A stretch of 64,000 bases of DNA from Polytrichum commune. Its lineage: Eukaryota > Streptophyta > Polytrichopsida > Polytrichales > Polytrichaceae. The stretch is from assembly GCA_950295325.1 (NCBI GenBank), contig OX485804.1:38688001-38752000 (forward strand), read 5' to 3'. A program made the translations under genes and the position numbers. Positions within the stretch are counted from its first letter, which is position 1. Every line of letters begins with the position of its first letter. Positions 10,148 to 64,000 of the stretch are shown in pieces. The notes beneath the pieces were generated by a model, which was given only the letters and a program-made list of their open reading frames with translations, did no database searches and was not told where the DNA came from.

Positions 10148-13100
10148 ATGGTGGTGCGAGCCTTGGGCGCTGGCCATCTCCCATTAAGTGCACCTCTCTT
10201 GCAAGCTGCAGATCACTGCGACCGCGTGCACCGAATTTCTTCCACCAAACTTAGGTTGGTTGCTCTCTGTCTCTCTCTCTCTCGCGCGCGCGCGCTGGGT
10301 TTTTGGAACATGCCCGGCATGAGAAATTTAATTTGCAAGCTTCTACTACTCTTCTGAATCCACCGTGAAGAGGGAGCATAAGGATCGAAGAAGATTATAT
10401 GTAGGGTTGGCCAGGTTTTTTTCTCACATTCCATCGGGGCGTCCACCCTGAAGTTTCTGAGGTTGAATTACACATGCAGCTCTTTCAGGAAATTGAGAGA
10501 GAAAGAGACGACTGCCTGAATCCAGAAATTCATCGAGTGTTAGGAAGGTCACCCATCCGAGCACTATTCCAGCTCAGACTTTGACAAATTGTCCAATTTT
10601 GATTTATTGGTTACAAAGTTCTTCAATGATGCGCATAATCTCTTCTTGATGGAAATTACATTAGATGATGCCAATCTAATGCCATTGGGTGGGCCTTGTC
10701 CACCCAGTGGCCATTATCTAATATGTTCTGGTTTTGCTTGGATACAGCAGTACCATGTGATGAATGACAAAAGCAGGAACTAGACTACTCCATTGAGATT
10801 GAATTTGCACACCTTTACACTATCTCAGCTGTCCACATGCTGCAATTGGTACCTTAGTGTGTTTGAAGGGTTGAGGGTTAGATTATTTCCTGAGTTTGAT
10901 AATGAAGAAATTATGCACCGTACTCTGGAATTATTAGAGGTCCAACTAGGTGGCGGAAGTAAAGGAGAATGTAATCAGGTTCATAAGCCCTAAGGCGTGA
11001 TTAGCGTAGGCAATGTTTTCGTGACTGAATCGGTGTGAATTCTCACACTAGACCACTGGTGGTATGATGTGGAGTATATTCTTCCAGCGACTTTTCCAAG
11101 TCTCTGGACAGAGTATAATCAAGTTTTGAACTCAGCTGACTTAAGGATGCGAGCCATATGTTCCTGGGTACACAGATTTGTTCTCTGTCGATTTGAGTCT
11201 TGTTCCAGTTTCAGGTTTGAAGACATATGATCCTATCCTTTCATATTGGCGCTCGAATGTCATTGACCGCACTGCTTATATGTGGGATTATCTAGATACC
11301 TGTCTGATTCCCATTTTTGTTCATTGATTTTGTGGAGTTCTACTTTATGCTGGGCCTGGACTGATGATTATAGGTTCACTGCCCCTTTTACCTACTTATC
11401 TGGAACGTCATCTCAAACAATCACTCTTTCTTTCACAATGTGCTACTCATTCAACCGACAATTGGATCTAATATTTTTTTCAAAAACCCTCGGTGGACGG
11501 TTTGCAACTTCATAAGACAACATCTTGCAGTCTTTGTTTTGTAGGTTTTGTAACTTTCTTTTTGGAGTTGTTTTGTTGAGTGTCCACCACTTTGGGCACG
11601 CTTATCAGATTGCTTAATGCTCTAGGTATACACAGTCCGTGCTCTTCATTAGCTATTAGATAATGACCCAATGGCGTTTCGCTAATGTAATTTCCATTTC
11701 CATTGGACAAAGATTATGCCAAACATTGAAGAATTCTGTAAACATTTTGTTGGACCATATGGCATTTTGTGAATGAGGTAATGTGCATGAATGTGGAGAG
11801 CATAATCTCTTCCCAATAGAATTTACATTGCACAAAAACTCTCGCTCTTCCTGGAGATTGGTTATTTGTGCTCTAATATTTGACAAGAATCGATGCTGTT
11901 CCAGATGGCTGCAAAGATTATGCACATCCTTGAAGAAGAATTTCCATATCATGTTATTGAGCCATATGACATTTTCTAGAATGAGGCGTTGGATGTATTT
12001 GAATGTCTGGTTCACCCAAAGAAAACTTCGCTCTTCCTGTCATTTTCTGGTCTTGGATGATGTTTCGACGATATTTGATAGTGAAGGATCCCCAGTTTTG
12101 CTACATTTGCCTCCATCCTGGCTTCCTGAGTCAACATCTTGCAGTCTTTGTCTTGTGGGTTCTATACTCCCCTTTCATTTTGCAGCTGTTCTGTTGAGTT
12201 GCGCCTCTTTGACACATTCAACAGATTGCTCAATGGTAGATTCAGATAGTCCATGCTCTCCACTAGGTATCAGATAGTGGCCATTGGCTCAAACCATTTC
12301 TGCAAATTTTTGAAGAATTCGTAAACATTCTGTTAGGCATATGACATTTTCTGGACAAGGTGGATGTGTTCGAATGTGGGGTTTTGTGTGGATGTTTTAA
12401 TCTGTTTGAATGTGTTTGCTTTCTGAAAACATACTGTTGGACCATATGACATATTGTGAACGGGGTGGATGCATTTGAATGTGTCGTTTTTAATGGATGT
12501 TTGAATGTGTTTGAATGTGTGATTCTTCGCGCCTGGCTAATGTGTGGACGATGTATGATGGTGTTTTCAGATGGATGCAAGGTGAAGCATCCCTCACCTT
12601 CCCCACTCTTGCATCCACCGCCTCGACGTCCGGCGCTGTCCGCACCCTGGTGAGAGCGGAGGGAGGCAGACAGCCCTGGGACTTTGGGCGCTTCTTTCAG
12701 ACGATCTATTTCTTCAACGGGCCTCCATCTCTGAGCAAATTGGTGAGCTCCGTTATGCAATCGATGACAGCAGGGAATCAAGAGGGGGTGAGCAGCAGCA
12801 GAAGGGGCGAAGAGCTCGTGTTGGTGACGGGCGCGACGGGCGGGGTCGGTAAACGAGTGGTCGACGAATTGCGCAAACAAGGGATCCGTGTGCGTGCGCT
12901 CGTGCGAAATGTGGAGAAAGCCAAAAAACTCCTTCACCAGGACGTCGAAGTCGTAACCGCGGACATCACACAACCCGCGACGTTGCTCCCGGAGTATTTC
13001 CACGGTGTCACGAAGGTGGTGCACACAGCGGCGGTGATCGTAGGGCCCAAGGAAGGCGACACGGCGGAGCGCCAAAAGTATTACCAGGGGATCAAATTCT

Positions 13101-14656
13101 TTGACCCTGAAATCAAAGGAGACACGCCTGAGGCGGTCGAGTACGTCGGAATGCGGAATTTGCTGGAGAAAGTGAAGCAGCATGGTGGTGTTGGGCTTAG
13201 GGAAGGTCGGACGTTGTTTTCGATTTCGTCGCGCGGTGTGCCGACCGGGCCGGCGTGGGGAGCGTTGGACGACGTCGTCATGGGCGGTGTGAGCGCGAGC
13301 TCGTTGCAATTCGGAGGTGATGGTGAAGGGGGAGCTCCCACGGGGTTGTTCAAGGGTTACGTCTCCACGGACAACAACGGTGGGTTCGCCAGCATCCGGT
13401 CCCGGAACTTCGAGCCCATCGAGGATTTGAGTGCCTACGAAGGATTCGAGCTGCGTATCAAGGGAGATGGGCACCGGTACAAGTTCGTGTATGTCAACTA
13501 ACCTCATCTCCTACATCGATTCCTTTTAGCTCCCCTCCGCGTAAACTGCAACCATCGCAACATCTTTAGCACAAGTCGCACATGTTGCAATCTCTCGCTC
13601 AAATGAAAGTCTTGATTGGGCTCGATCCACATCTTTGATCCCATCCTTGCAGGCGAATAATATCTGAATGAGAAGTTCAGATTCAGCCTGAAATATAAAG
13701 AATGATCAAGCTGAACGATGTTATATTGGACTTCTGCCATTTTTTATTTGTTGAAGTTGACTGCGGATTACATATTAGTCATTCAGGCACGTTTTTATTA
13801 GTCATATGAAATAAACTGACAGTGTGCAAATGTTCGAATTGATTTGCTGGGTTGTCGTTTTAGTTTATGCTTATCAGTAAACCAATGTTGTTTGACCTGC
13901 AGAGTGCGCACAAACACAGACTGGGATGCTGTGGGCTACACGAGCGGCTTCGACACCGTGAAAGGAGAATGGCAATCAATCCGCCTGCCATTTTCGTCAT
14001 TTGTACCAATTTTCAGAGCCAAGACAGTGAAAGACGCGCCACCATTTGACACCAGCAAAATCGCGTCACTACAGTTAATCTACAGCAAGTTTGAGTCTGA
14101 TGGAAAGCTGAACCCCCATTTTGAAGCGGGCCCATTCGAGCTTCCCATCAGCCAAATCAGAACCTACTTGAAGGAGCCCATCACTCCCAATTTTGTCCAC
14201 CTGAGTTCAGGAGGAGTGACGCGGCCCGACAGGCCGGGCTTGGATTTGAGCAAGCAACCTCCGGCGGTGCGCATGAACAAGGAGTTGGGTTACATTCTTA
14301 CTTACAAGCTGAAAGGCGAAGACTTGGTGCGAGAGAGCGGAATTCCTTTCACCATAGTTCGCCCTTGCGCTCTCACAGAGGAACCTGCGGGTGCCGAGCT
14401 TCAATTTGATCAAGGAGATAATATTACTGGTAAAATTTCTAGAGAAGAAGTTGCACGCATCATTGTTTCAGCTTTGTCCTCCCCTGCCGCTTGCGACAAG
14501 ACTTTTGAGGTAAAGAGCACTGTCCCATTCAGCCAACCGTTCACTGTTGATCCTGCTAACCCTCCTGCACCCCGGAGTTATGCGCCTTTCTTTGAGGAAT
14601 TGAAGACAGGGATCACAGGCAAGGAGGCATTGGAGAAAGTGGAGGCGTCCGTGTAG
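10148..14656 (+). CDS. Plastid NAD(P)-binding / CIA30-domain protein, 3 exons, 592 aa
   Basis: Exons: 10148-10254, 12571-13488 and 13903-14656. Together they give 1779 nt and phases match at both junctions. Exon 1 codes a transit-peptide-like segment, MVVRALGAGHLPLS; its assignment is inferred from phase and from its CT-rich leader. Exon 2 contains PWDFGRF..IYFFNGPP, then an NAD(P)-binding Rossmann segment LVTGATGGVGKRV (glycine loop about residues 123-129) and VGPKEGDTAERQKY. The CIA30 domain starts near residue 265 at WGALDDVVMGGVSAS and continues into exon 3 (TDWDAVGYTSGFDT). The C-terminus returns to an SDR-like segment (GIPFTIVRPCALTEEPAGA) and ends ITGKEALEKVEASV. Domain order and length resemble Arabidopsis At4g18810 (about 596 aa), related to HCF173, which supports psbA translation. 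A role in photosystem or organelle RNA/assembly work is family inference. Confidence 0.9.
11520..12480. repeat. Degenerate ~610-bp tandem duplication inside intron 1
   Basis: The segment CATCTTGCAGTCTTTG...TTGTTGAG...CAGATTGCT..ATG at about 11521-11670 recurs at about 12130-12290. Downstream pieces also recur, for example GAAGAATT...AAACATT.TGTTGGACCATATG near 11726, 12312 and 12421. A related piece (TTCTTCAATGATGCGCATAATCTC) near 10620 is inverted relative to 11700. These lie in the 2.3-kb intron 10255-12570. Confidence 0.7.
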
Positions 14657-22977: not shown

Positions 22978-23379
22978 ATGTCGACGAAGGCGAGATGGGA
23001 AGCTGAGCACAAAGCTCCTGAAGTTACCATGCCGGTCTATGAAGATGACAGCATGGTGGACGACGACGGCAAACCTCGCCGTGTAGGCAAGGAGCTTTCC
23101 TTTTCTCCCCTGCACCTGCGTTGCGTGTGCGTTGCGTTGCGTTGAGTTGAGTTGAGTTGAGCCGAGTCGGATTGGATGGTTGCAAGAAGAAGAACAAACG
23201 ACGTGGAATCGGGAAGTCGGTAATTCGTTTGGTCATGTACGGGGTATACTGCATGCGGCATCCGGCGCTTCCAAGCATAATATTGCACTCGTCGATCACT
23301 CGTCGACATAAACTATAGTGGTTCAATTTGCACATGAAATGTTGTGCATCGTCATGCATGCGTGCGCGCGCGCGCGCGC

Positions 23380-23424
<45 letters not shown>

Positions 23425-26400
23425 TAAGCGCAGGAACGTCCTGAGTATGTCGCGCACTTATTATTACGTTCCGTAATTGTGTAACAGAACCCATAATCAC
23501 TAACGGGGTTTTTGAAGGTTTAGGAAGTTACTAGTGTCATTTGCAAATGATGTGTATTGCAACATGTGTGTGTGTGTCTGAGTGCAGGAATGTGCGGAAT
23601 ATGTTGCAAACGGGTTGCGAAAGTGGTATACCCCTTCTCGAAGAGCTTCCATTACCAACGGGGTTTTGGAAGGTTTCTGTAATGGAATTTGTACCACAAC
23701 CGTTTTACAACATGTGTGTGTGTGTGTGTGTGTGTTCTGAGTCATGCAGGAACGGTGCTAAGTGTGTTGCAAACTATACCAGCTTTGTAACAAAGTCAAT
23801 TCCCAACGTCGGAATTTCTCAAGGTTTTTGTCGTAGTTTTGCACACGAAGTGGTAATTTGCGACATATCTGTCTGTCTGTCTCTGTGTGTGGAGTGCCGA
23901 AACGGTGCCAAGTTTGTTGCAAAAATATGATTCCCCTTTGTAACAGAGCCCATTACAAACCGTGGGTTTTTTCGAAGGTTTTTGTGTTGGAATTTGCACA
24001 TGCAATGGTTTGTAACATGTGCGTGTGAGTGCAGGAGCTTGTTAAAGATGTCGCAAACTTATACCCCTCCGTAACAGAGCTCTTTTCCAACGGCCGGGTT
24101 TTTTGAAGGTTTTTGCATTATTATAGAATTTCCACATGAATTGTATAATGTATTGCACCATGTGAACATGTGTGTATGAGTGCAGGAACGTGCTCAGGTG
24201 TTGCCTCGTTAGCAACAGAGCCCATTGCCAACGGGTTTTTGAAGGGTTTTGAAGGTTTTTGAAGCTGGTTATTACAGTAGCGGAATTTGCATAAGTGTTT
24301 TTGAACCTTCATGTGTGTGTAACTTGTATGCAGGAACGGTATGGACAGCGTCGGCGCATGTGATCACGGCGGTGATAGGGTCCGGGGTGTTGTCGTTGGC
24401 ATGGAGCATCGCACAGATGGGGTGGGTGATCGGTCCCATAGTGCTCCTCTTGTTTGGAATAGTCACATACTTCATGTCGATGATGCTCGCCGATTGCTAC
24501 CGCCATCCAGACCCTGTGACTGGCAAGCGGAACTACACCTACATGGACGCCGTCAAAGCCAACTTGGGTAAACAAACCTTCTTCTTCTTCTTCTCTCGCT
24601 CTTCAGGATGCGTCACTGTATGCGGAATTTGAGTCGATCGCTTTGGCTTATTTTGCCATTGGTTAATTCGTCATTCTTGTACTTTCAACGTCGATATGTA
24701 TGTGTATATATGCAGCTATAAGAAGGGGTACAGTGACTTTCTTAATTATACGGCCATTCAGTAATGCAGCGTTTGAGAACCGGCCGCTCCGTTTAGCACT
24801 CAAGCACCGTGAAAGTTCATAGCTGGAGTAGCTTAGCCCTTAAATGATTCTTCTCTTCACCTTTCCTACCTGCCGAAGGTCGGTGGAAACGCTGGCGAAG
24901 ATTGTAGTAAGGTTTGGCTTCTTGTAATTTTGGAAGGACACAGCTACTAATTCTGTCCCTTTGTGGGAGGCAAGCAGAAATTATTGTGATAGCTCTGGAT
25001 AAAGTTGTCATTGCACAGGTACTTCGACGTCGTTTTTGTTCTTGCAATGTCGATATGTATGTGTGCATGTAGGTTTAAGAAGGGGTTTAATGACTTTCTT
25101 AATCCGGGCATAAGTAATGCAGCGTTTGGCAATCGGCCGCTCCGTTTAGTGCACTCAAGCACCGTGAAAGTTCATAGCTGGAGTAGATTAACCCTTATTG
25201 ATTCTTGTCTTCGACTTTCCTATGCAGCCACTTCTGTCGCTCTTTGAGATGCATACAGAAATTGATTTGATCACCTTAGATCGATTTGTCAAAAGGTTCA
25301 GTGCAACCGTGTGAACACCCCAATGTGGGTGATTGATTCATCGTTCTTCGTTCATTTAACGTCGATATGTATGTATGTATGTATGTATGGGGTTTAAGGA
25401 CAATTCCGACCATTTTATGTAGCTGCTTTTAGCAACCGTGAAACTATGTAGCTAGAGTAGCTTAACTCTTTCTTCTTTTCACAATTCCATACTGCTGAAG
25501 GAAGGTCGGAAGATGACACACAAGCAGTAAGAAGGTTTGATGACTTTAAATGTAGGATTAATTTCACCACATAACTATACATGCATGTTAAAACAATTGT
25601 GGTTCCTAGAGAGATACTTAAGAGCTGATATATATACCGGCAAGTAATTAATCTCCAATATAATTTTGTGTATGTGGTTTACTGCTGGCCAGGGAGGAAG
25701 CAGGTGTTCCTTTGCGGTTTGATGCAATACACAAATCTACTGGGGACTTCCATTGGCTACACCATCACTGCGTCCACAAGCATGGTGTACGAAACAATTT
25801 TCTGACTCTCAAAGTTATAATATAATATCCTCTGTTTTCAAGTTGAGTCAATTACAAGCCTTACTTATACCTACATGTGGACATTGATAAGCGTGCGACT
25901 GCAAGACATCCAGGTGCTTTCATGTTGGGTGTACCTCATACTTGGTTCCCTTAGAAAATGTGTATATATTAGTCCTCATAGCAATTGGTGATTGATGGGT
26001 TAGGCTTTTGCTAGGCGACATGGTTGATATGTTTATACATGTATTCAATATTCACAGTTACAGTGCGGTATGCTCTGCAATATATGAAATTTTTAATTAA
26101 GGTTTGTTTTTATGGCTGCAGGGCTATCACAAGGTCAGATTGCTTCCATATCAAAGGAATGAAGGCACCCTGCCATGTCTCAAACATTCCGTACATGACA
26201 ATATTCGGGGTTGCACAGCTCGTTCTGTCGCAGATTCCAGGGTTTGGCGAGTTATGGTTCCTCTCCATAGTTGCGGCTGTGATGTCCTTTGCATATTCCT
26301 CAATTGGGTTGGGTCTTGGTATCGCATACTCTGCAGGTAAGCTGAAATCTTATCCAACATGTAAATTTGCTTCTGAGCTATATAATGTGATTTATGTGAT

Positions 26401-30408: not shown

Positions 30409-30630
30409 ATGCCAATGAACGGGGAGAACCGACCGCTAGTTACAAGATGAACCGGGTGAGTTTGAGGATTAACCGGTTCAAGTTCAAGACTTCAGGAGAA
30501 ATGCTCATCATGTTGGAGGAATCTTTGGAATATACCTCAAATTAGTAAAGAATAACCGAAAGATCTCAACATGAAACCGGTTAGACTTGGAAACACTAGG
30601 ATTCTGACCGATTATGCCCAAAAAAATTGC
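30409..30630. repeat. Duplicated segment, copy 1 (partner 31797-32290)
   Basis: CCAATGAACGGGGAGAACCGACCGCTAG-type sequence continues through GTTCAAGACTTC.GGAGAA and a GGAATAT..CTC segment into one diverged unit of the 69-bp minisatellite found downstream. The partner starts at about 31797. The two copies flank the MITE at 31263-31642. Confidence 0.7.
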
Positions 30631-31921: not shown

Positions 31922-32290
31922 AAAACAGAAAGATCACAACACGCAACCAGTTGAACTTGGAAACACTAGGATTTTGACTGATTATGCCCCAAAACCTCCC
32001 CCAAAAACCAAAAGATCACAACACATAACCAAGTGGACGTGGATACACTAGGATTTTGACCGATTATGCCTAAAAATTGAAAGATCACAACACATAACTA
32101 GTTGGACTTGGAAACACTAGGATTTTGACCGATTATGCCCAAAAACCGAAAGATCACAACACGTAACCGGTTGGACTTGGAAACACTAAGATTTTGACCG
32201 ATTATGCCTAAAAACCAAAAGAGCACAACACGTAACCGGTTGCACTTGGAAACACTAGGATTTTGACAGATTATGCCCAAAACCGAAACC
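31922..32290. repeat. 69-bp minisatellite, five units
   Basis: The unit runs AGATCACAACACGTAACCGG, then TTGGACTTGGAAACACTAGG and ATTTTGACCGATTATGCC. Unit starts are at about 31931, 32013, 32082, 32151 and 32220, so spacing is 82, then 69, 69 and 69 bp. Later units are the most alike. It is direct, head-to-tail and without spacers. Confidence 0.9.
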
Positions 32291-33188: not shown

Positions 33189-34420
33189 ACCTATCATGTT
33201 GAAGGGATCTGTGAGGTTAATGAACTCCAGTCTCGATTAGGGGACAAAACAAACGTAGTGATCGAGAACAATACCGTGCTATATATATACTCAGGTTCGA
33301 GTACAGCACAGTCAAGCTGGGCCACGTCCATATATAACCAAAGACCTAAACCCTAAACCCCCCCAAATCCTGAAGTATTTAATTTGCAGTACTTCGACAT
33401 GATCCAGAATCCTAAGTTATTTCATGCTTCCGATCATGATTTGCAGACTTTATGTTTCCCGATCATGACTTGGATGGCATTGAAGTCGGTCGTAGGAATG
33501 TGCTCTCCTTGCGTTTCCAGTGTTTAATTCTGGGTGCTAGCTAGCTATAGCTTAGCTAGTCCTTGAAATGCTATCATTTCTGCCTTGAGATATGGTTAAG
33601 TTATTGCAGCGATCACGCATGCAGCCATGACCTCCAACCGGGCCAGCCTGATCAACTCAGTGAACGTACGGCAGAGTTCGGGAAGTTTTGGAAGCCTTAG
33701 TGGCTAATTGCCGGTAGTTGCTACGAAGGGTCGGATTTCTTCCAATTTACATCGGCAACAGCCGGTCTTTTGTAACATCAATCGCCCAATTGCCTATATT
33801 TTCATATTTTCATTGGCCAATATCCGATTAAATGGAATTCATATCGGCACTAATTGTTTAAACAAATGTATGAAAAGTTATTAGAAATCATTTCTTAGTA
33901 CAAAATCTTGAATAAGTGAAAAGAAAGGCATGTTCAAAACTTTAAATTTGAAGAGTTAATATCCTTGGCAGCAATTGAACCTAGCAATGCCTTCACCGCT
34001 TGAAGGCCAAGGGTCCCCCAATTCTTCATAGAAGCAATTGGATTTGGTCATGGAAAGGTTGCATAATTCAAAAGTTTAAGGTTTAGGGTACTTCCTCAAG
34101 TGCATCATCAGATGCCCCACACAAATAGCTCTCTGGATGCTTCCGGCTGAAATCCAGTAACTCACAAGAAGAATCGGCTACATTTCCGGGACATTTTCTG
34201 GTCCATTGGCTAATTGCCGGAGGATTGAAATTACAGTCGGATTGCCATCCGATGGTTGGAAATTTGGACCGGCCATGAGGGAAAATCCATCGGCTGATAA
34301 TGAACTAGCCGTCGGTTTTCCCCGAACATAGGTGAACGGTTTTAAATCCAATTTTGTCCACCGATTATGTCGGTTGAATGGTTTACAATCCACATTCGTG
34401 ATACGCAAAGACTGCATAAT

Positions 34421-34821
34421 GTTACTAAGCAGTTTGACGATGGTTTCTTTCCAAAGAAAGACGTTGCAAATTCAAAAGCTGCATATTGTTACTAAGCAGT
34501 TTGACGATGGTTTCTTTCCAAAGAAAGACGTTGCAAATTCAAAAGCTGCATATTGTTACTAAGCAGTTAGACGATGGTCTCTTTCCAAAGAAAGACGTTG
34601 CAAATTCAAAAGCTGCATATTGTTACTAAGCAGTTAGACGATGGTCTCTTTCCAAAGAAAGAGGTTGCAAATTCAAAAGTTGCATAATGTTATTAACTTA
34701 GTTGTTAAACGATGGTCTCTTTCCAAAGAAAGACGTTGCAAATTCAAAAGTTGCATAATGTTATTAAGTTGCTAAACGATGGTCTCTTTCCAAAGAAAGA
34801 GGTTGCAAATTCAAAAGCTAT
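34421..34821. repeat. 67-bp minisatellite, six units, each with a small hairpin
   Basis: The unit runs GTTACTAAGCAGTTTGACGA, TGGTTTCTTTCCAAAGAAAG, ACGTTGCAAATTCAAAAGC. Starts are at 34421, 34488, 34555, 34622, 34689 and 34760: four exact 67-bp steps and a final 71. Each unit has the palindrome TCTTTC-CAAA-GAAAGA. Copies are head-to-tail without spacers. An open frame crosses the first units but has no family resemblance. Confidence 0.92.
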
Positions 34822-45226: not shown

Positions 45227-46316
45227 CAGTGCTCAAAATTGAAGTCTTCAGTGCCCTTCAAATGGGTTTTGGGACTTCAAAAAATACCTCAAGGAAAACA
45301 GCCCTTCAAAACATAATCCTCATGTCTAAGTGCTCCCTTCACTTGAAGTGCTGGATAAATAGTACCCTTCAAGTATTGTTCATCATCTCAAGTAGCCGTT
45401 TAACTCCGGTTGTCTAACTTTGGGCTCCAGATCTTAGATCCAGATGGGAATTGTATGTTGATAGGTTTGGTTGTGAGAAAGTGCATACTTTGCACTATGA
45501 CTCTATGCCCGAGTGTGATGTAGGGGGCTCGTTGGAGGATTGCATCACCCTTGGTAGACTATACGTCCAAAAGGTTATTGACTCACTAAATGATCGCTTC
45601 CCCGACTTGCCCATTTTTAATGCGGCCAGGCTTTTCAGCCCAAAACACTATCCCATGGATGCATTGGATCGAGGCACTTTAACTGAGAAATGGTTGAACC
45701 GGTTGGTGACACATTTCAAGTGGAGCTCTGTTCTTGTTGATCAAGCCAATGCGGAGTTGCTCGAATTTGTGGAGATGTTATCTTCAGCTTGTCAACACCG
45801 AAGTATGCATGAAGATTGGGTTTTTTGTGGCCATGACCGAGAGTTTAAGATCAATTGGCCAACCCTAATGTTGCTATGCCAAGCCATACTTGTGATCCCT
45901 ACTAGCACTATTGTTTGTGAGCGTGGTTTTTCAAAGCAGAATTGGGTTAAGAGCGAAAGGAGAACATGCCTAAACCTTGACACACTTGATGCATTGATGA
46001 GGGTTAGCCTAAACAGTTTGGGAGTTGAATTCATGGATTGGAATGGAATTTTTGACACTTGGAAAACCGCTACAGTAACCAACAAGCGTAGGGCATTGTC
46101 ACTTCAAGAGGTGGAGTTAGATAGTTGATTCTCCATTATTTCATTGTACTAGAAGCATGTACCATGTAAATCATGCATAATTTTAATATAAGTTTTATAT
46201 TTCTTTGAAAATTTTCCATTGATGTCCTAGATTTAGATATGCCCTTCAATTGCAATGCTGAAATTTCAGAGCCCTTCAAAATGAAATTCATATGAGGGCT
46301 TCAATTTTGAGCACTG
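45227..46316 (+). mobile_element. hAT element 2 with 8-bp target duplication ACTAAAAC
   Basis: This 1090-bp element has 18-bp perfect terminal inverted repeats, CAGTGCTCAAAATTGAAG. It is flanked by ACTAAAAC at 45219-45226 and 46317-46324. Subterminal zones carry several CCCTTCAA motifs on both ends, of the kind hAT transposases bind. It encodes only the C-terminal part of a transposase, so it is probably an internally deleted derivative. Confidence 0.95.
45451..46128 (+). CDS. hAT transposase C-terminal half (225 aa, intact frame)
   Basis: Open from 45451 to the stop at 46128 with no disruption; the frame extends a little upstream (RWELYVDRFG). It ends in the hAT dimerisation domain: NWPTLMLLCQAILVIPTSTIV, CERGFSKQNWVKSERRTCLN and LDTLDALMRVSLN. 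Upstream residues (LNDRFPDLPIFNAARLFSP) resemble the region just before that domain in zinc-finger-862-type hAT transposases. The RNase H catalytic core and BED finger are absent. It is probably the last exon of a once-spliced transposase, kept when the rest was deleted. Confidence 0.8.
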   Translation: MYVDRFGCEKVHTLHYDSMPECDVGGSLEDCITLGRLYVQKVIDSLNDRFPDLPIFNAARLFSPKHYPMDALDRGTLTEKWLNRLVTHFKWSSVLVDQANAELLEFVEMLSSACQHRSMHEDWVFCGHDREFKINWPTLMLLCQAILVIPTSTIVCERGFSKQNWVKSERRTCLNLDTLDALMRVSLNSLGVEFMDWNGIFDTWKTATVTNKRRALSLQEVELDS

Positions 46317-46549: not shown

Positions 46550-47762
46550 CAATGTCCGCCAAGAGCCTAAGGCTAGTGTAAATGCAGCCTACAAAATTTG
46601 TGACTTAGCCTATAAAATTTTGAAAGTGTAGGACAAAGAGCCTATGGACAATTTAAAAACATAGGATATCAACCTGTGATAAAAAAACATGTAGGAAATT
46701 TTGCCTACAAAGTTTCTAAAAGAGAGGATTTTAGCCATTCATCCTTCTTCAAATTGGGAAATTAGTTGACCTAAGTACATATCTTTAGGCTAATACTCGG
46801 GGCTCTTGGGTGGCACATAGACGGATATCAATAATAGCCCTAACTCCCTTCCCGCCAATCTTTACAAACGCAAGTTGGCTTGAGTTCTTATGGAGTTGTG
46901 CAGTTGGATTTGCTTCTGAAACATTATGGAGAAGAAAAGCGTATTGGGGGCACAACATATCCTCCATTGGTAAATGTTGTAGCTTGTAAGCAAGAATTCT
47001 TTGCTTTCAAAGTGCAAGGTAGTTGTGAATGGAGTGATCGTACCTTCGAGGATTTGTGGACGTCTATAAGTTGGAGTCCTTCTTTGAAACTTAAATTTCC
47101 TAACCTACTAACGCTTGCCGACATTGCAAGATGCCAATGTGTTAGTACTGCTACTTGTGAGAGAGCTTTCTCTGTGCATAATAACATCAAGCAAAAGAAA
47201 AGGAATCGAATGACAACAACACACTTGGATAGTGTGATGCGGGTGGCGATTGAAGGACCAACCAAAAATTTTGAGTTTATTTTGGAGGAAGCTATATCTT
47301 TGTGGAAGGATTCAAGAAAGTTTCAATTCTTGTTTACTAATCCTAAGAAATATCTTGCAGGAAGAGTAGAGGTTGAATCAGAAGATGGCGAGGACTTTCA
47401 CCCTTAAACTCATTTGAATTTTAGCAACCTTTCATTATAATCAACTCTTTAAAAAAGAGTTGGTTAATCCTTGGCCTTCAAACGTGGTGAAGGGCTTAGC
47501 CAGGTTCAATTCCTGCCAAGGATACCACTTAGTACTCAAATTTTGAATTCAAAGCCTACAACATTAAAAGATATGAAGGATTTTAACCTACTAAAAACTA
47601 GTTTTGAAGGCAATTGGCGGGTAACTTAAAAACTCAAAAGGTTTTCAACTTACAAAAATTTGATATTGTAGGATGCAACCTATGCCATGATGGAAATAGC
47701 CTATGCCCTCCTAAAGAGGTAGGCAATTAACCTCAAAAACTTCAAAAACTTTTCGGACACTG
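46550..47762 (+). mobile_element. hAT element 3 with 8-bp target duplication GTGTTGAC
   Basis: This 1213-bp element has imperfect inverted ends CAATGTCCGCCAAG / CAGTGTCCGAAAAG. Both sides carry GTGTTGAC (46542-46549 and 47763-47770). Subterminal GCCTAYAAAATTT-like repeats occur at both ends. Its ends differ from those of the hAT element 225 bp upstream, so it belongs to another subfamily. The interior keeps a C-terminal transposase frame. Confidence 0.92.
46880..47407 (+). CDS. hAT transposase C-terminal fragment (175 aa, intact frame)
   Basis: An uninterrupted frame ends at 47407. It contains FPNLLTLADIARCQCVSTATC, then ERAFSVHNNIKQKKRNRM and HLDSVMRVAIEGP, the hAT dimerisation domain of the zinc-finger-862/C17orf113 type. 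It ends in an acidic tail, EVESEDGEDFHP. No catalytic core is present within the element. The start at 46880 is only the first available initiator; the real protein would have begun in a lost upstream exon. Confidence 0.78.
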   Translation: MSSYGVVQLDLLLKHYGEEKRIGGTTYPPLVNVVACKQEFFAFKVQGSCEWSDRTFEDLWTSISWSPSLKLKFPNLLTLADIARCQCVSTATCERAFSVHNNIKQKKRNRMTTTHLDSVMRVAIEGPTKNFEFILEEAISLWKDSRKFQFLFTNPKKYLAGRVEVESEDGEDFHP

Positions 47763-48549: not shown

Positions 48550-49500
48550 TCACCAGTAAGAACGGCGGGTGGTCTCCTCGGCTGGCTCCTCAGAGTACTC
48601 CTCGGTGTCACGACGCCCACGGCGAGGACGATCCGCAGAATACTCCGAACTACCCTCATCATCACCGTAGCTCTGCTGCGTGCGGCCATATCCAGAGCGG
48701 TACCCTCCTTCCTCCTGAACCGCTCCAGTTTCCTCTTCACCGTAATTCTTTCTCGGGCGAGCAAGGTAGTCAGACTCCTCCGCCTCTCCATAAGCCTTCT
48801 GAGGGCGGCCATAGCCAGACTGGTACCCTCCCTCTTCTGTCTCCTCTTCTCCCTGGGGCCTGCGTCCACGACCATACCCGGATCGGTATCCTTCTTCCTC
48901 CTGAGGCTCCTCGGTCTCCTCCTCTTCATAATTCTTTCTCGGACGGCCATAGGTCTGGCGAGACCCCTGCCCACCGCCATAGCCTTCTTCACCGTAAGAA
49001 GGCTTAGGCTTGCGGTACCCTTCCTCTTCACCATATCCTTCCTCACCATAAGAAGGCTTAGGTTGACGGTAGCCCTCCTCTTCGCCGTATCCTTGGCCAT
49101 ACCCGGCAGGTTTGCGGCCATAGCTTTCCTGCTCCTCCTCTACAGGCTCCTCAGCTGGAGGAGCTTCATATTCTTCATTCCTACGGCTACGGCGACCACC
49201 ATAGCCAGCTCCACCGCCCCGATTGGGCTGCGCTTCCTCGTAGCTCGGCTTGGTGCGATCATAAGTCTGCTTCTGGCCACCGTATGATGAACCTTGGGAA
49301 GGGCATCCGTAAGGGTTCTTCTCGTTGCCGTAGTGACCTTCGGCCTCCTCCGCATCCTCTCCGAACTGTGCAGGGCGGTAGGCTGTCTCCTCGTCTGCGG
49401 GCTTCACCGATCCATACACTGCGGCCTGATCGTATCCTCCCTTGTATGGAGTGGGATCGTACTCATCGTAATTCTCCTCCGCCTGGTTCCTGCGCACCAT
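48550..49500 (-). CDS. Tyr/Glu/Gly/Arg-rich disordered protein, PLDRP1-like, 316 aa
   Basis: Single-exon frame from ATG at 49500 to TGA at 48550. The N-terminus MVRRNQAEENYDEYDPTPYK followed by GGYDQAAVYG...DEETAYRP resembles Arabidopsis At5g39570 (PLDRP1), whose start also has DEFDPTPYGGGYD. PLDRP1 is reported as an unstructured, phosphatidic-acid-binding protein regulated by phospholipase D alpha 1. The rest is low complexity: repeated KPSYGEEGYGEEEGYR, SGYGRPQKAYGE and ARPRKNYGEEETG units with alternating acidic and Arg/Tyr blocks, ending RRSYW. No signal peptide or membrane segment is visible. Homology rests on the N-terminal motif and composition; binding of lipid or RNA is inferred from the family. 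Confidence 0.78.
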   Translation of the reverse strand: MVRRNQAEENYDEYDPTPYKGGYDQAAVYGSVKPADEETAYRPAQFGEDAEEAEGHYGNEKNPYGCPSQGSSYGGQKQTYDRTKPSYEEAQPNRGGGAGYGGRRSRRNEEYEAPPAEEPVEEEQESYGRKPAGYGQGYGEEEGYRQPKPSYGEEGYGEEEGYRKPKPSYGEEGYGGGQGSRQTYGRPRKNYEEEETEEPQEEEGYRSGYGRGRRPQGEEETEEGGYQSGYGRPQKAYGEAEESDYLARPRKNYGEEETGAVQEEGGYRSGYGRTQQSYGDDEGSSEYSADRPRRGRRDTEEYSEEPAEETTRRSYW

Positions 49501-49640
49501 TGTCGCTGCTTCCGATCTGCACTGCTGCCGATCTCGATGAATTCTGCAAAGCTAACAACGATCTACAACGCTCCGAATCTCTTCTCCTCCTGCCTGTGTG
49601 CTCCAAACTGCTCGCGACACTCGACCCTCGGTGACCCTCG

Positions 49641-49660: not shown

Positions 49661-49873
49661 TGAGAAACTGTGGATGCGGGCTTTTCATCCGCTGACACCG
49701 CGTGTCGCTGTGATAAGATCCCCAGAAAAGGAAGACCGGTTCCTTTCTTCCAAATGCCGGCCGCCTATCACGACCTTCAACGCGGTTCTTAACCCCACCG
49801 GGCCCCTGTATCTGCCCCTCCAGACGGTGGTCGGTGGAGGCCCCACGGTCATAGGAGCACATGCCATGGTCTA

Positions 49874-50381
49874 AGGGCCACTTCACGCACGAGCCAAGAG
49901 CCGTGACCAAATATTTGTGAGAGCCCAAAAGAAAAGTGTCCAAAGGCCGTCCCAACACACCTCCAACATCATGTAGTGTGGTCACCGACCCTCAAGTGTA
50001 GGGTGACGTCCTATGTGACCGGGCCCTCAACCAAATGCTATTTCAATGAATTTCTATTCAAGCGGATCCTCATATATGATCAAATAGAATAAATTTGATA
50101 GTTGTGCGCGTTCGGAGTGCCTTGGTCTCCCGGTCTTGTGTTAGGCCTACCTCCAAGAGGTGGTTTTTGAAAATAATCCAAGTGACCATGAAACATGATC
50201 CATTCGATGCCATCTAGGGATCCATGTACACTTTACATCCATCTTGCATTCACATGCTTTGTGGGTCGCTCAAGCGTAGTGTGAAGTAGCGAACTTGGAC
50301 CGGCTCCGCCTTTTCCACCAATGAGAGTGCTTGAAGTGTAATGGTCACGGGCTCTCAGTCTCATGTGTGTGAAGTGGCCCT
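49874..50381 (-). mobile_element. MITE, AGGGCCACTTCAC family, copy 1
   Basis: This 508-bp element begins AGGGCCACTTCACGCACGAG and ends in the inverse TCATGTGTGTGAAGTGGCCCT. The inverted ends continue inward to about 36 bp (AGAGCCGTGACC / GGTCACGGGCTCT). CTCAAGTGTAG..TGA-type motifs recur internally. It has no coding capacity. It lies 374 bp upstream of the PLDRP1-like start codon, in the same orientation relative to the gene as copy 2 at 63273-63776. No clean target duplication was found. Confidence 0.88.
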
Positions 50382-52074
50382 GAGCTAAATGAGTCTCAAA
50401 TGGTTACTTGTTCCCACTAACCCACTCCTCATCGAAGATATGAAACATGCAATTGATACAACTTGATGGTTAGCAAATCCAAATCATGAAGGCCTAAAAC
50501 CCTAACATAGTTTCTATCACTAGTCTTGAATGCGGTTGTTAAATTGGGTTGTGTCAATGTTTCTATCTTGTCCTAGACCCTTGCAACAATGTTTACATCC
50601 ACGGGGAGGTCACTGGCAAAAATCGTAGAAACAACGTGCGATAAAAAAAGAAAAAGGTCTAATATATTCATTGTAGGTAAATTTTGCAAAAAGAATGTAC
50701 ATATAATATAGGGGGTTTTAAAATGTTGAAACATGTTTACATGTAACATACCATCACATATAATGGCCTCTTTTATTTAGTCAGTACATGTAAAATAGCA
50801 TTATAACAATTACTAGGGTAGCGGATCTAGGGTAGGGTTTGTGCTAGTGGATGAAAAAAGGTAATTATGTGTTGAAAATGCTTGGATGAATGACTATGCA
50901 CACATGCTTGCTTGAACATTACTGAACCAACAGTGGAGTTAATGGTATCTACCCACGTGCCGGGAGGGAAAATTTCTGCGCTTTGTTTGACTTTATTTCA
51001 CAGTCTAAGACAATGCTTCAGTTGCATGCCTTTGCCTTAGGTTTATTGTTTTGATTTAGTTCATGTAAGTTTAGCATTATGGTTGAACCTCACAATTCAT
51101 GGTTGTAAGAAGAGAAATGTCCTTCATGAAAAAAAATGTCGCTTACATAACCAAAAATAAATAAAAATGGGGTGTACGAAATAAAATGCGGTTTAAGAAG
51201 AAGAAGAAAATGAACAACAGTTGGGCTCCAAGAAAAGAAAAGAAAAATTGGAGTAAAGTCAAAAAATTGGTTACTTGGAATATTAAAAAATGCAATATGA
51301 ATAAAATAGGGTATTTTTAAATGATTCCACCAAAAACTTATGATGACTGATAGGGTGTATTAAAATACAAGCATTTACCTCTATTTTGAAAAATACCATA
51401 CCTTATAATCTTTTCTGCAAGATAAATAGCCCCCCGATAAATAGGTCTTGAGCACATGTGTATGCATTAATTAAAAAGGGAGTGACCTTGCCATGTTTAC
51501 ATCCCGTCACGGTAAACAAAGTTCTCTTTTAGTTTGCCTTCAAATTACAAGTGCATCTTTCTTAATCTTCTAATTTAACATTGTTATTAAGAACTCTTTT
51601 AGTCTCCTACTTTGAATGAATGTGCTACTTATTTCTAGGATTTTGGGCTCTTACTAAGTCTCGGATGTCCCTTTTGCTCTTAGATATCTCAAGATATAGA
51701 TTCTCCTTTAGAATTTTCTGTTGTGTTTTTACAAAATAGGTATCTCCCTATACCCTAACTTTGGATTTGAACATTATAAATTTACAATGTTGCATTTACT
51801 GACAATGATTTCTCATCCAAGTTTCAAGGATGATGAATGAATGACATTACTTTCATTCCCTAACTATTAGCATGCAGAATATACCTAACTTTGTTTCAAT
51901 AATTGGCATGCCAAACTTCATGCCAAGTGACACAAGCATAAGATAGGTTAGAGGGTGCTTATAATTAAGCTGGAATATAGCCTGCTGGAGTCCATTTTGA
52001 TAGTGGCTTAGCAAATCTCCATAGGTCACAAGGTTTTATTAACCCAAGTTTTGATTATATACCGGTCGAGCATT
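50382..52074. other. AT-rich intergenic region, no gene
   Basis: Short A-rich tracts dominate (50640-51300). No convincing frame, inverted ends or tandem array was seen. Confidence 0.45.
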
Positions 52075-63149: not shown

Positions 63150-63272
63150 TGCCCGCGGGCTGCCACGCTGTGCTGCCCCTTTCACACTCAAAGGTAGTGA
63201 GTAGGAAGGAGACCCGTTTCTATCCTACGTGGCCTTTTCGTACAGGGATTGCCAAGGGGCCCGTTTACACTA

Positions 63273-63776
63273 AGGGCCACTTCACACACGACCCAAGAGC
63301 CGTGACCATGAATTTGTGAGAGCCCAAAAGAAAGTGTCCAAAGGCCGTCCCAACACACCCTCCAAAATCATGTAGTGTGGTCACGGATCCTCAAGTGTAG
63401 TGTGAAGTCATATGTGACCAGGCCCTCAACCAAATGCTATTTCAATGAATTCTTATTCAAGCGGATCCTCACATATACTAAAATAGAATAAATTGACAGT
63501 TGCGAGCATTCGGAGTGCCATGGTTTTCCAGTTTTGTGTTAGGCCTACCTCCAAGAGGTGGTTTTTGAAAATAATCCAAGTGACCATGAAACATGATCCA
63601 TGTAGGATGCCATGTAAGAATCCATGTAGAGTTTGCATCCATTTTGGATTCACGTACTCCCTTGGTCCCTCAAGCGTAGTGTGAAGCGAACTTCGATTGG
63701 CTCCACCTTTTCCACCAATGACAATGCTTGAAGTGTAATGGTCACGGGCTCTTAGTCTCGTGTGTGAAGTGGCCCT
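63273..63776 (-). mobile_element. MITE, AGGGCCACTTCAC family, copy 2
   Basis: This 504-bp element begins AGGGCCACTTCACACACGAC and ends TCGTGTGTGAAGTGGCCCT. It is roughly 85-90% like copy 1 at 49874-50381 by eye over its whole length, including CTCAACCAAATGCTATTTCA and CCTACCTCCAAGAGGTGGTT. It lies 344 bp upstream of the VHA-A start codon. Non-coding; no clear target duplication. Confidence 0.9.
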
Positions 63777-64000
63777 CAGGGTTGGTTCAACATGGGGTCC
63801 CAAGTCCCAACATAGAGGCAAAGTCCCAACTTTTGAGCCTCAAGAAACCATTAAAATATGGTTAATTCTCATTGAAGTCTAACCTTGATCATATTTATGC
63901 AAAAATGTTCAAGGGACTTAGGTTGAAAATTGGGTATAATTTAGCTTTTTGCTCAACCTAACTCTCAACACGTCCCAAGCCTCACCGATAAAAAAATGTT
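63777..64000. other. Window end, no gene recognised
   Basis: A short AT-rich stretch beyond the MITE. Nothing could be identified before the window ends. Confidence 0.4.

Follow-up and report, generated by a model that had tools for sequence, protein, structure and literature searches.

Why should the first intron of a permease gene carry, one behind another, sequences that look like its own 3′ splice site? An earlier note on this locus of Polytrichum commune described a tandem array of ~150-bp units in intron 1 whose ends copy the true acceptor, and proposed either a role in splicing or tandem growth that had started at the splice junction. We analysed the whole stretch of 64,000 nucleotides (the window; contig OX485804.1, positions 38,688,001–38,752,000) in which the gene lies, an Aa_trans gene that we take to be of the plant AAP type.

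Table 1. Features of the permease gene and of the array in its intron 1 (positions are those of the window; a slash marks a splice junction)
Feature	Start	End	Strand	Length	Remarks
Exon 1, coding part	22978	23086	+		36 codons + 1 base, MSTKARW...KPRRV-G
Intron 1	23087	24333	+	1247 bp	GC donor TAG/GCAAGG, acceptor TATGCAG/GAACGG; donor inferred from frame and consensus
Leftmost copy of unit tail	23319	23433	+		Partial, diverged; left edge approximate; ends at decoy 23433
Unit 1	23434	23587	+	154 bp	3′ end is decoy acceptor 23587
Unit 2	23588	23749	+	162 bp	3′ end is decoy acceptor 23749; next seven bases identical to exon 2 (7 of 7)
Unit 3	23750	23899	+	150 bp	3′ end is CCG, AG lost
Unit 4	23900	24034	+	135 bp	3′ end is decoy acceptor 24034
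Unit 5	24035	24185	+	151 bp	3′ end is decoy acceptor 24185
Unit 6	24186	24333	+	148 bp	3′ end is true acceptor, preceded by 38 AG-free nt
First seven bases of exon 2 (GAACGGT)	24334	24340	+		Right limit of repeat homology (5–7 bases)
Amino-acid permease exon 2	24334	24567	+		

Exons 1 and 2 fuse in phase 1 (...KPRRV-GTVWTASAHVITAVIGSG..., with the junction reading G-T-V-W), and the joined exons match PF01490 (Aa_trans) with an E value of 1e-24 and a start at residue 36. Among solved structures there was one distinct sequence, a proton-coupled amino acid transporter 1, which is uninformative on the intron, and the viral_contigs search returned no relatives of exon 2. When all GT and GC sites between 23031 and 23300 were ranked, the top-scoring donor was the GC at 23087, which matches 7 of the 9 consensus positions, is in phase 1 and is compatible with the frame of exon 2. 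The competing phase 1 donors are a GC at 23069 (ACG/GCAAAC), which matches 6 of 9 positions and would lose KPRRV, and a GT at 23081 (GCC/GTGTAG), which lies outside the 12 best. Intron 1 would be a GC-AG intron with its donor most likely the GC at 23087, and the pairing of this donor with an AG acceptor is like that of GC-AG introns, the assignment coming from frame and consensus only. The GC donor does not appear in the earlier note.

The array occupies approximately 23319–24340 and consists of six units of 135–162 bp and one diverged partial unit, delimited by seven acceptor-like sites (Table 1). The proposed ~150-bp periodicity was borne out: in global alignment all 15 pairs of units scored above dinucleotide shuffles (z of 5.8–11.4; 200 shuffles each), and in local alignment 12 of the 15 exceeded all 200 shuffles, the exceptions being units 1 and 3, 2 and 3, and 3 and 6. 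(For these pairwise tests the boundary of units 3 and 4 was set at 23897, giving lengths of 148 and 137 bp.) One unit does lack the AG, as had been noticed, and reads CCG at 23897–23899. Units re-cut at an AAGGTTT anchor (V1–V6) share 64–72% identity over ungapped columns, with K2P distances of 0.34–0.49 in the 15 pairs and neighbours no closer than other units. The array is absent from the output of TRF, as is expected from the divergence of its units. The leftmost partial copy (V0) lies at K2P distances of 0.57–0.67, in part because its TG run is a poorly aligning microsatellite, and its global z values against units 1–6 run from −0.6 to 1.1. Its local score with the consensus of the whole unit is 38, above all 4186 background windows, which were shorter and were scored with the consensus tail only. 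A compound microsatellite of GC, GT and GA (23370–23418) sits in the place of the TG run in this copy.

The true 3′ splice site at 24333 is the last copy of the array. The copy that contains it (24252–24340) aligns to the consensus tail of V1–V5 with a score of 52, and the maximum over the 4186 background windows, which cover the rest of the 64 kb and were scored on the better of both strands, is 24. The intron 1 body aligned with its own acceptor region gives 43.5, exceeding all 300 shuffles (maximum 40.5). The first seven bases of exon 2 are matched at the six other copies in 5, 4, 7, 6, 3 and 5 positions, and at the 68 other AGs of intron 1 in at most 4. CAG occurs 1385 times when the two strands of the window are taken together; four of these continue as CAG/GAACG and all four lie inside the array, as do the only two occurrences of CAG/GAACGGT. 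It is thus very improbable that the likeness at the exon border arose by chance, an unrelated array having stopped just short of the acceptor and coincidence or codon constraint having supplied the rest. The exon homology does span just 5–7 bases, and plant exons often begin with G, but the homology as a whole covers the last ~75 bases of the intron and runs into the exon, at a score more than twice the background maximum, and CAG/GAACG is found nowhere else in the window.

No resemblance between the unit consensus and exon 2 was seen past position +7 (p of about 0.49 in local and 0.37 in anchored alignment, with a consensus from the alignment in which units 3 and 4 were cut two bases early). 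Taken singly, the unit that follows 24185 scored above all 300 shuffles against this part of exon 2, the one that follows 23899 gave a p of 0.047 and the other four gave p values of 0.11–0.83. We take the two low values as chance among seven tests, a longer exon copy being conceivable for these two; for the units in general, a longer exon copy was rejected by the consensus and by the 76-bp head of the unit. The right edge of the repeat is accordingly read as lying 5–7 bases inside exon 2, and this edge, like the array and the membership of the true acceptor in it, can be followed directly in the letters.

This edge upholds the proposal that tandem growth ran across the splice junction and carried a few exon bases along, and growth across the junction is well supported. 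A single simple duplication as the source of the whole unit fared less well, as 76 bp of the unit have no detectable source: this head was not above background in exon 2 (+8 to +137) or to the left of the array (23189–23318), and no complete left unit was found before 23319. The order of the array is a tail, followed by head and tail six times. With no source found for the head, a plain one-step duplication of the intron tail and exon start does not explain the whole unit; either the left head would have been lost or have decayed, or the head would be foreign filler DNA brought in by the first duplication.

We consider it probable that the array arose by local duplication, expanded fast and then decayed neutrally, with splicing at the last copy only. 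A segment holding the 3′ splice site plus 5–7 bases from the start of exon 2 would have been duplicated locally in tandem, unequal exchange would then have raised the array to about six units within a fairly short time, and the units would have decayed neutrally after the expansion. The nearly equal distances among V1–V6 fit such a burst followed by decay. The last copy would be the one that is spliced, because only this copy joins the transporter in frame, and the five other AG-bearing copies would be fossils, or at most leaky acceptors that give early stops. We infer the order of events, the burst, the neutrality and the exclusive use of 24333.

The other proposal concerned about five decoy acceptors that share the context of the true site. 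Five AG-bearing copies are indeed present, but the shared context did not stand, as each decoy has a further AG close upstream. This second AG lies 5–8 nt upstream in all six non-terminal copies (the five with AG and the one without); it is GAG in five of them and AAG (23428) in the leftmost copy, which also has GAG 9 nt upstream. The AG-free stretches before the five acceptors assigned in the permease gene are 38, 48, 20, 33 and 44 nt (for introns 3–5 the acceptor was placed by eye, following the reading frame), and the decoys can be seen to have no such stretch. For human introns, the available part of PMC10655562 states that AG is expected to be absent between the branch point and the acceptor and that an AG fewer than 6 nt upstream is an effective competitor. 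With an AG at 5–8 nt, any decoy junction might fall at that AG instead. In the 50 nt or so that precede each site, YTNAY occurs at one of the six copies and, as TTCAT, at the true acceptor; the T content is 0.10–0.45 at the copies and 0.45 at the true site. Splicing at any of the six copies runs into a stop 3–31 codons on, and splicing at the GAG upstream of each copy (six tested) does so 6–52 codons on. The frame of about 24 codons that had been predicted from the decoy at 24185 was confirmed, with 25 sense codons, the junction codon included, before the stop.

These early stops could be put to use. If the decoys were joined to the GC donor at a regulated or a steady low level, the resulting early-stop isoforms would be degraded and the dose of permease would be tuned. 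Five decoys retain TGCAG/G or CGCAG/G, an early stop follows from every one of them, and the donor is likely to be GC, which is significantly elevated among the donors of alternative splicing in rice and Arabidopsis (PMC1769492, in the part available); in the same part of that paper the GC signal concerns donors, and acceptors show no difference. The anatomy is less favourable and speaks mildly against a splicing role: each decoy has its upstream AG, whereas the 38 nt before the true acceptor are free of AG; five of the six copies have no YTNAY; the T content at most equals that of the true site; and the early stop after every copy counts on this side as well. Conservation bears on both sides. 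In V0–V5 the acceptor box reaches 0.907 in a nine-base window, which places it among the best kept segments of the unit, but only three of the 7 windows (of 125) that reach this value are the acceptor box; the others lie at AAGGTTTTTG, TGTTGCAAA and ATTTGCACA. The box thus appears no better kept than three other unit segments, which fits neutral fossils, and its high conservation leaves room for weak selection and occasional use. On balance we regard the use of the decoys to set permease dose as unlikely. Should the ladder of acceptors behind the GC donor act as an attenuator, part of the splicing events would be spent on upstream copies, all of them early-stop, and the copy number of the minisatellite would set the level of a nitrogen transporter; we would give this quite a small chance.

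The repeats might instead affect expression through DNA or RNA, their likeness to a splice site being incidental. Plant first introns may boost expression (intron-mediated enhancement), for which the motif is TTNGATYTG. The array does sit in the first coding intron, near the start codon; against this, TTNGATYTG and CGATT each have 0 matches on the plus strand of intron 1, and we hold such a role to be highly unlikely. Two further candidates were ruled out. A recursive splice site, or ratchet point, is an acceptor abutting a donor (AG/GT), and GT directly follows the acceptor position in none of the six copies. Intron gain by tandem duplication (the Rogers model, AGGT) fails in the same manner, as no new AG/GT donor is found in any of the six.

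Returning to growth by local duplication, the neighbourhood of the array shows how ordinary such growth is here. Intron 2 (24660–25520) holds three diverged copies at spacings of about 270–360 bp (ACGTCGATATGTATG ... CACCGTGAAAGTTCATAGCTGGAGTAG), an array that the earlier note did not mention. As another instance of a copied acceptor it was rejected, with a score of 26.5 against a shuffle mean of 24.3 and maximum of 34 (p of 0.25). In the window as a whole, 29 of 34 self-matches have offsets below 3 kb; five of these 29 lie in introns 1 and 2, and several come from one array. TRF reported 20 rows for the window. With tandem growth this common, the intron 1 array needs no special cause, and its particular feature is that the acceptor is included. 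Cleaner arrays are present at 32000–32288 (69-bp units, 4.2 copies) and 34407–34819 (67-bp units, 6.1 copies), and DNA related to the former is found at 30412–30624.

Other features of the window were also recorded. The hAT transposase C-terminal dimerisation domain (PF05699) is present in each of two open stretches, 45418–46128 and 46844–47407. A 517-column match with 88% identity links 49871–50384 to 63270–63779, 13 kb apart and in the same orientation, and is perhaps a mobile-element pair. On the minus strand, a 333-residue open frame at 48550–49551 is rich in Tyr, Gly and Glu and overlaps a 54-bp tandem repeat (48977–49094). Gene pieces with NAD(P)-binding (PF13460) and CIA30 (PF08547) domains, each domain split across two open stretches, are found at 12515–14656.

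Repeats that span a splice site are known from other genes. In the available part of PMC4974935 (Ma, Lan and Niu 2016), a tandem duplication in potato RdRp crosses the boundary of intron 1 and exon 2, and a figure legend gives a further 83-bp tandem duplication within intron 1. As far as that part goes, the two cases are alike in that a repeat in a plant gene takes in the last part of intron 1 together with the beginning of exon 2, with acceptor, tract and exon bases all copied. They differ in that potato RdRp has one recent duplication that gave a new intron and a new donor, whereas the permease has about six old units with just 5–7 exon bases and no apparent new exon or intron. The VNTR in intron 18 of human ABCA7 (PMC5954066, in the part available) has a 25-bp unit that starts with the donor of exon 18, and an early stop results when one unit is retained. 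There too an intronic repeat unit carries a splice site that belongs to the neighbouring exon; however, it lies on the donor side, with 25-bp units of highly variable copy number and with splicing measured, whereas the permease array lies on the acceptor side and has decayed ~150-bp units. Among the matches listed, the titles and abstract starts in open PMC held no AAP intron with copied acceptors. The permease array is an acceptor-side, multi-copy and old counterpart of the known splice-site-spanning repeats.

The array looks like mostly ordinary intron growth, its copies resembling decayed remnants more than functional switches. It preserves a legible record of how introns lengthen: the acceptor was copied together with a few bases of the exon, and the gene is still readable because the copy adjoining the exon stayed intact. 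The true acceptor, with its 38 AG-free nucleotides, and its sister copies, with an AG 5–8 nt upstream, form a natural test set for the choice of acceptors.
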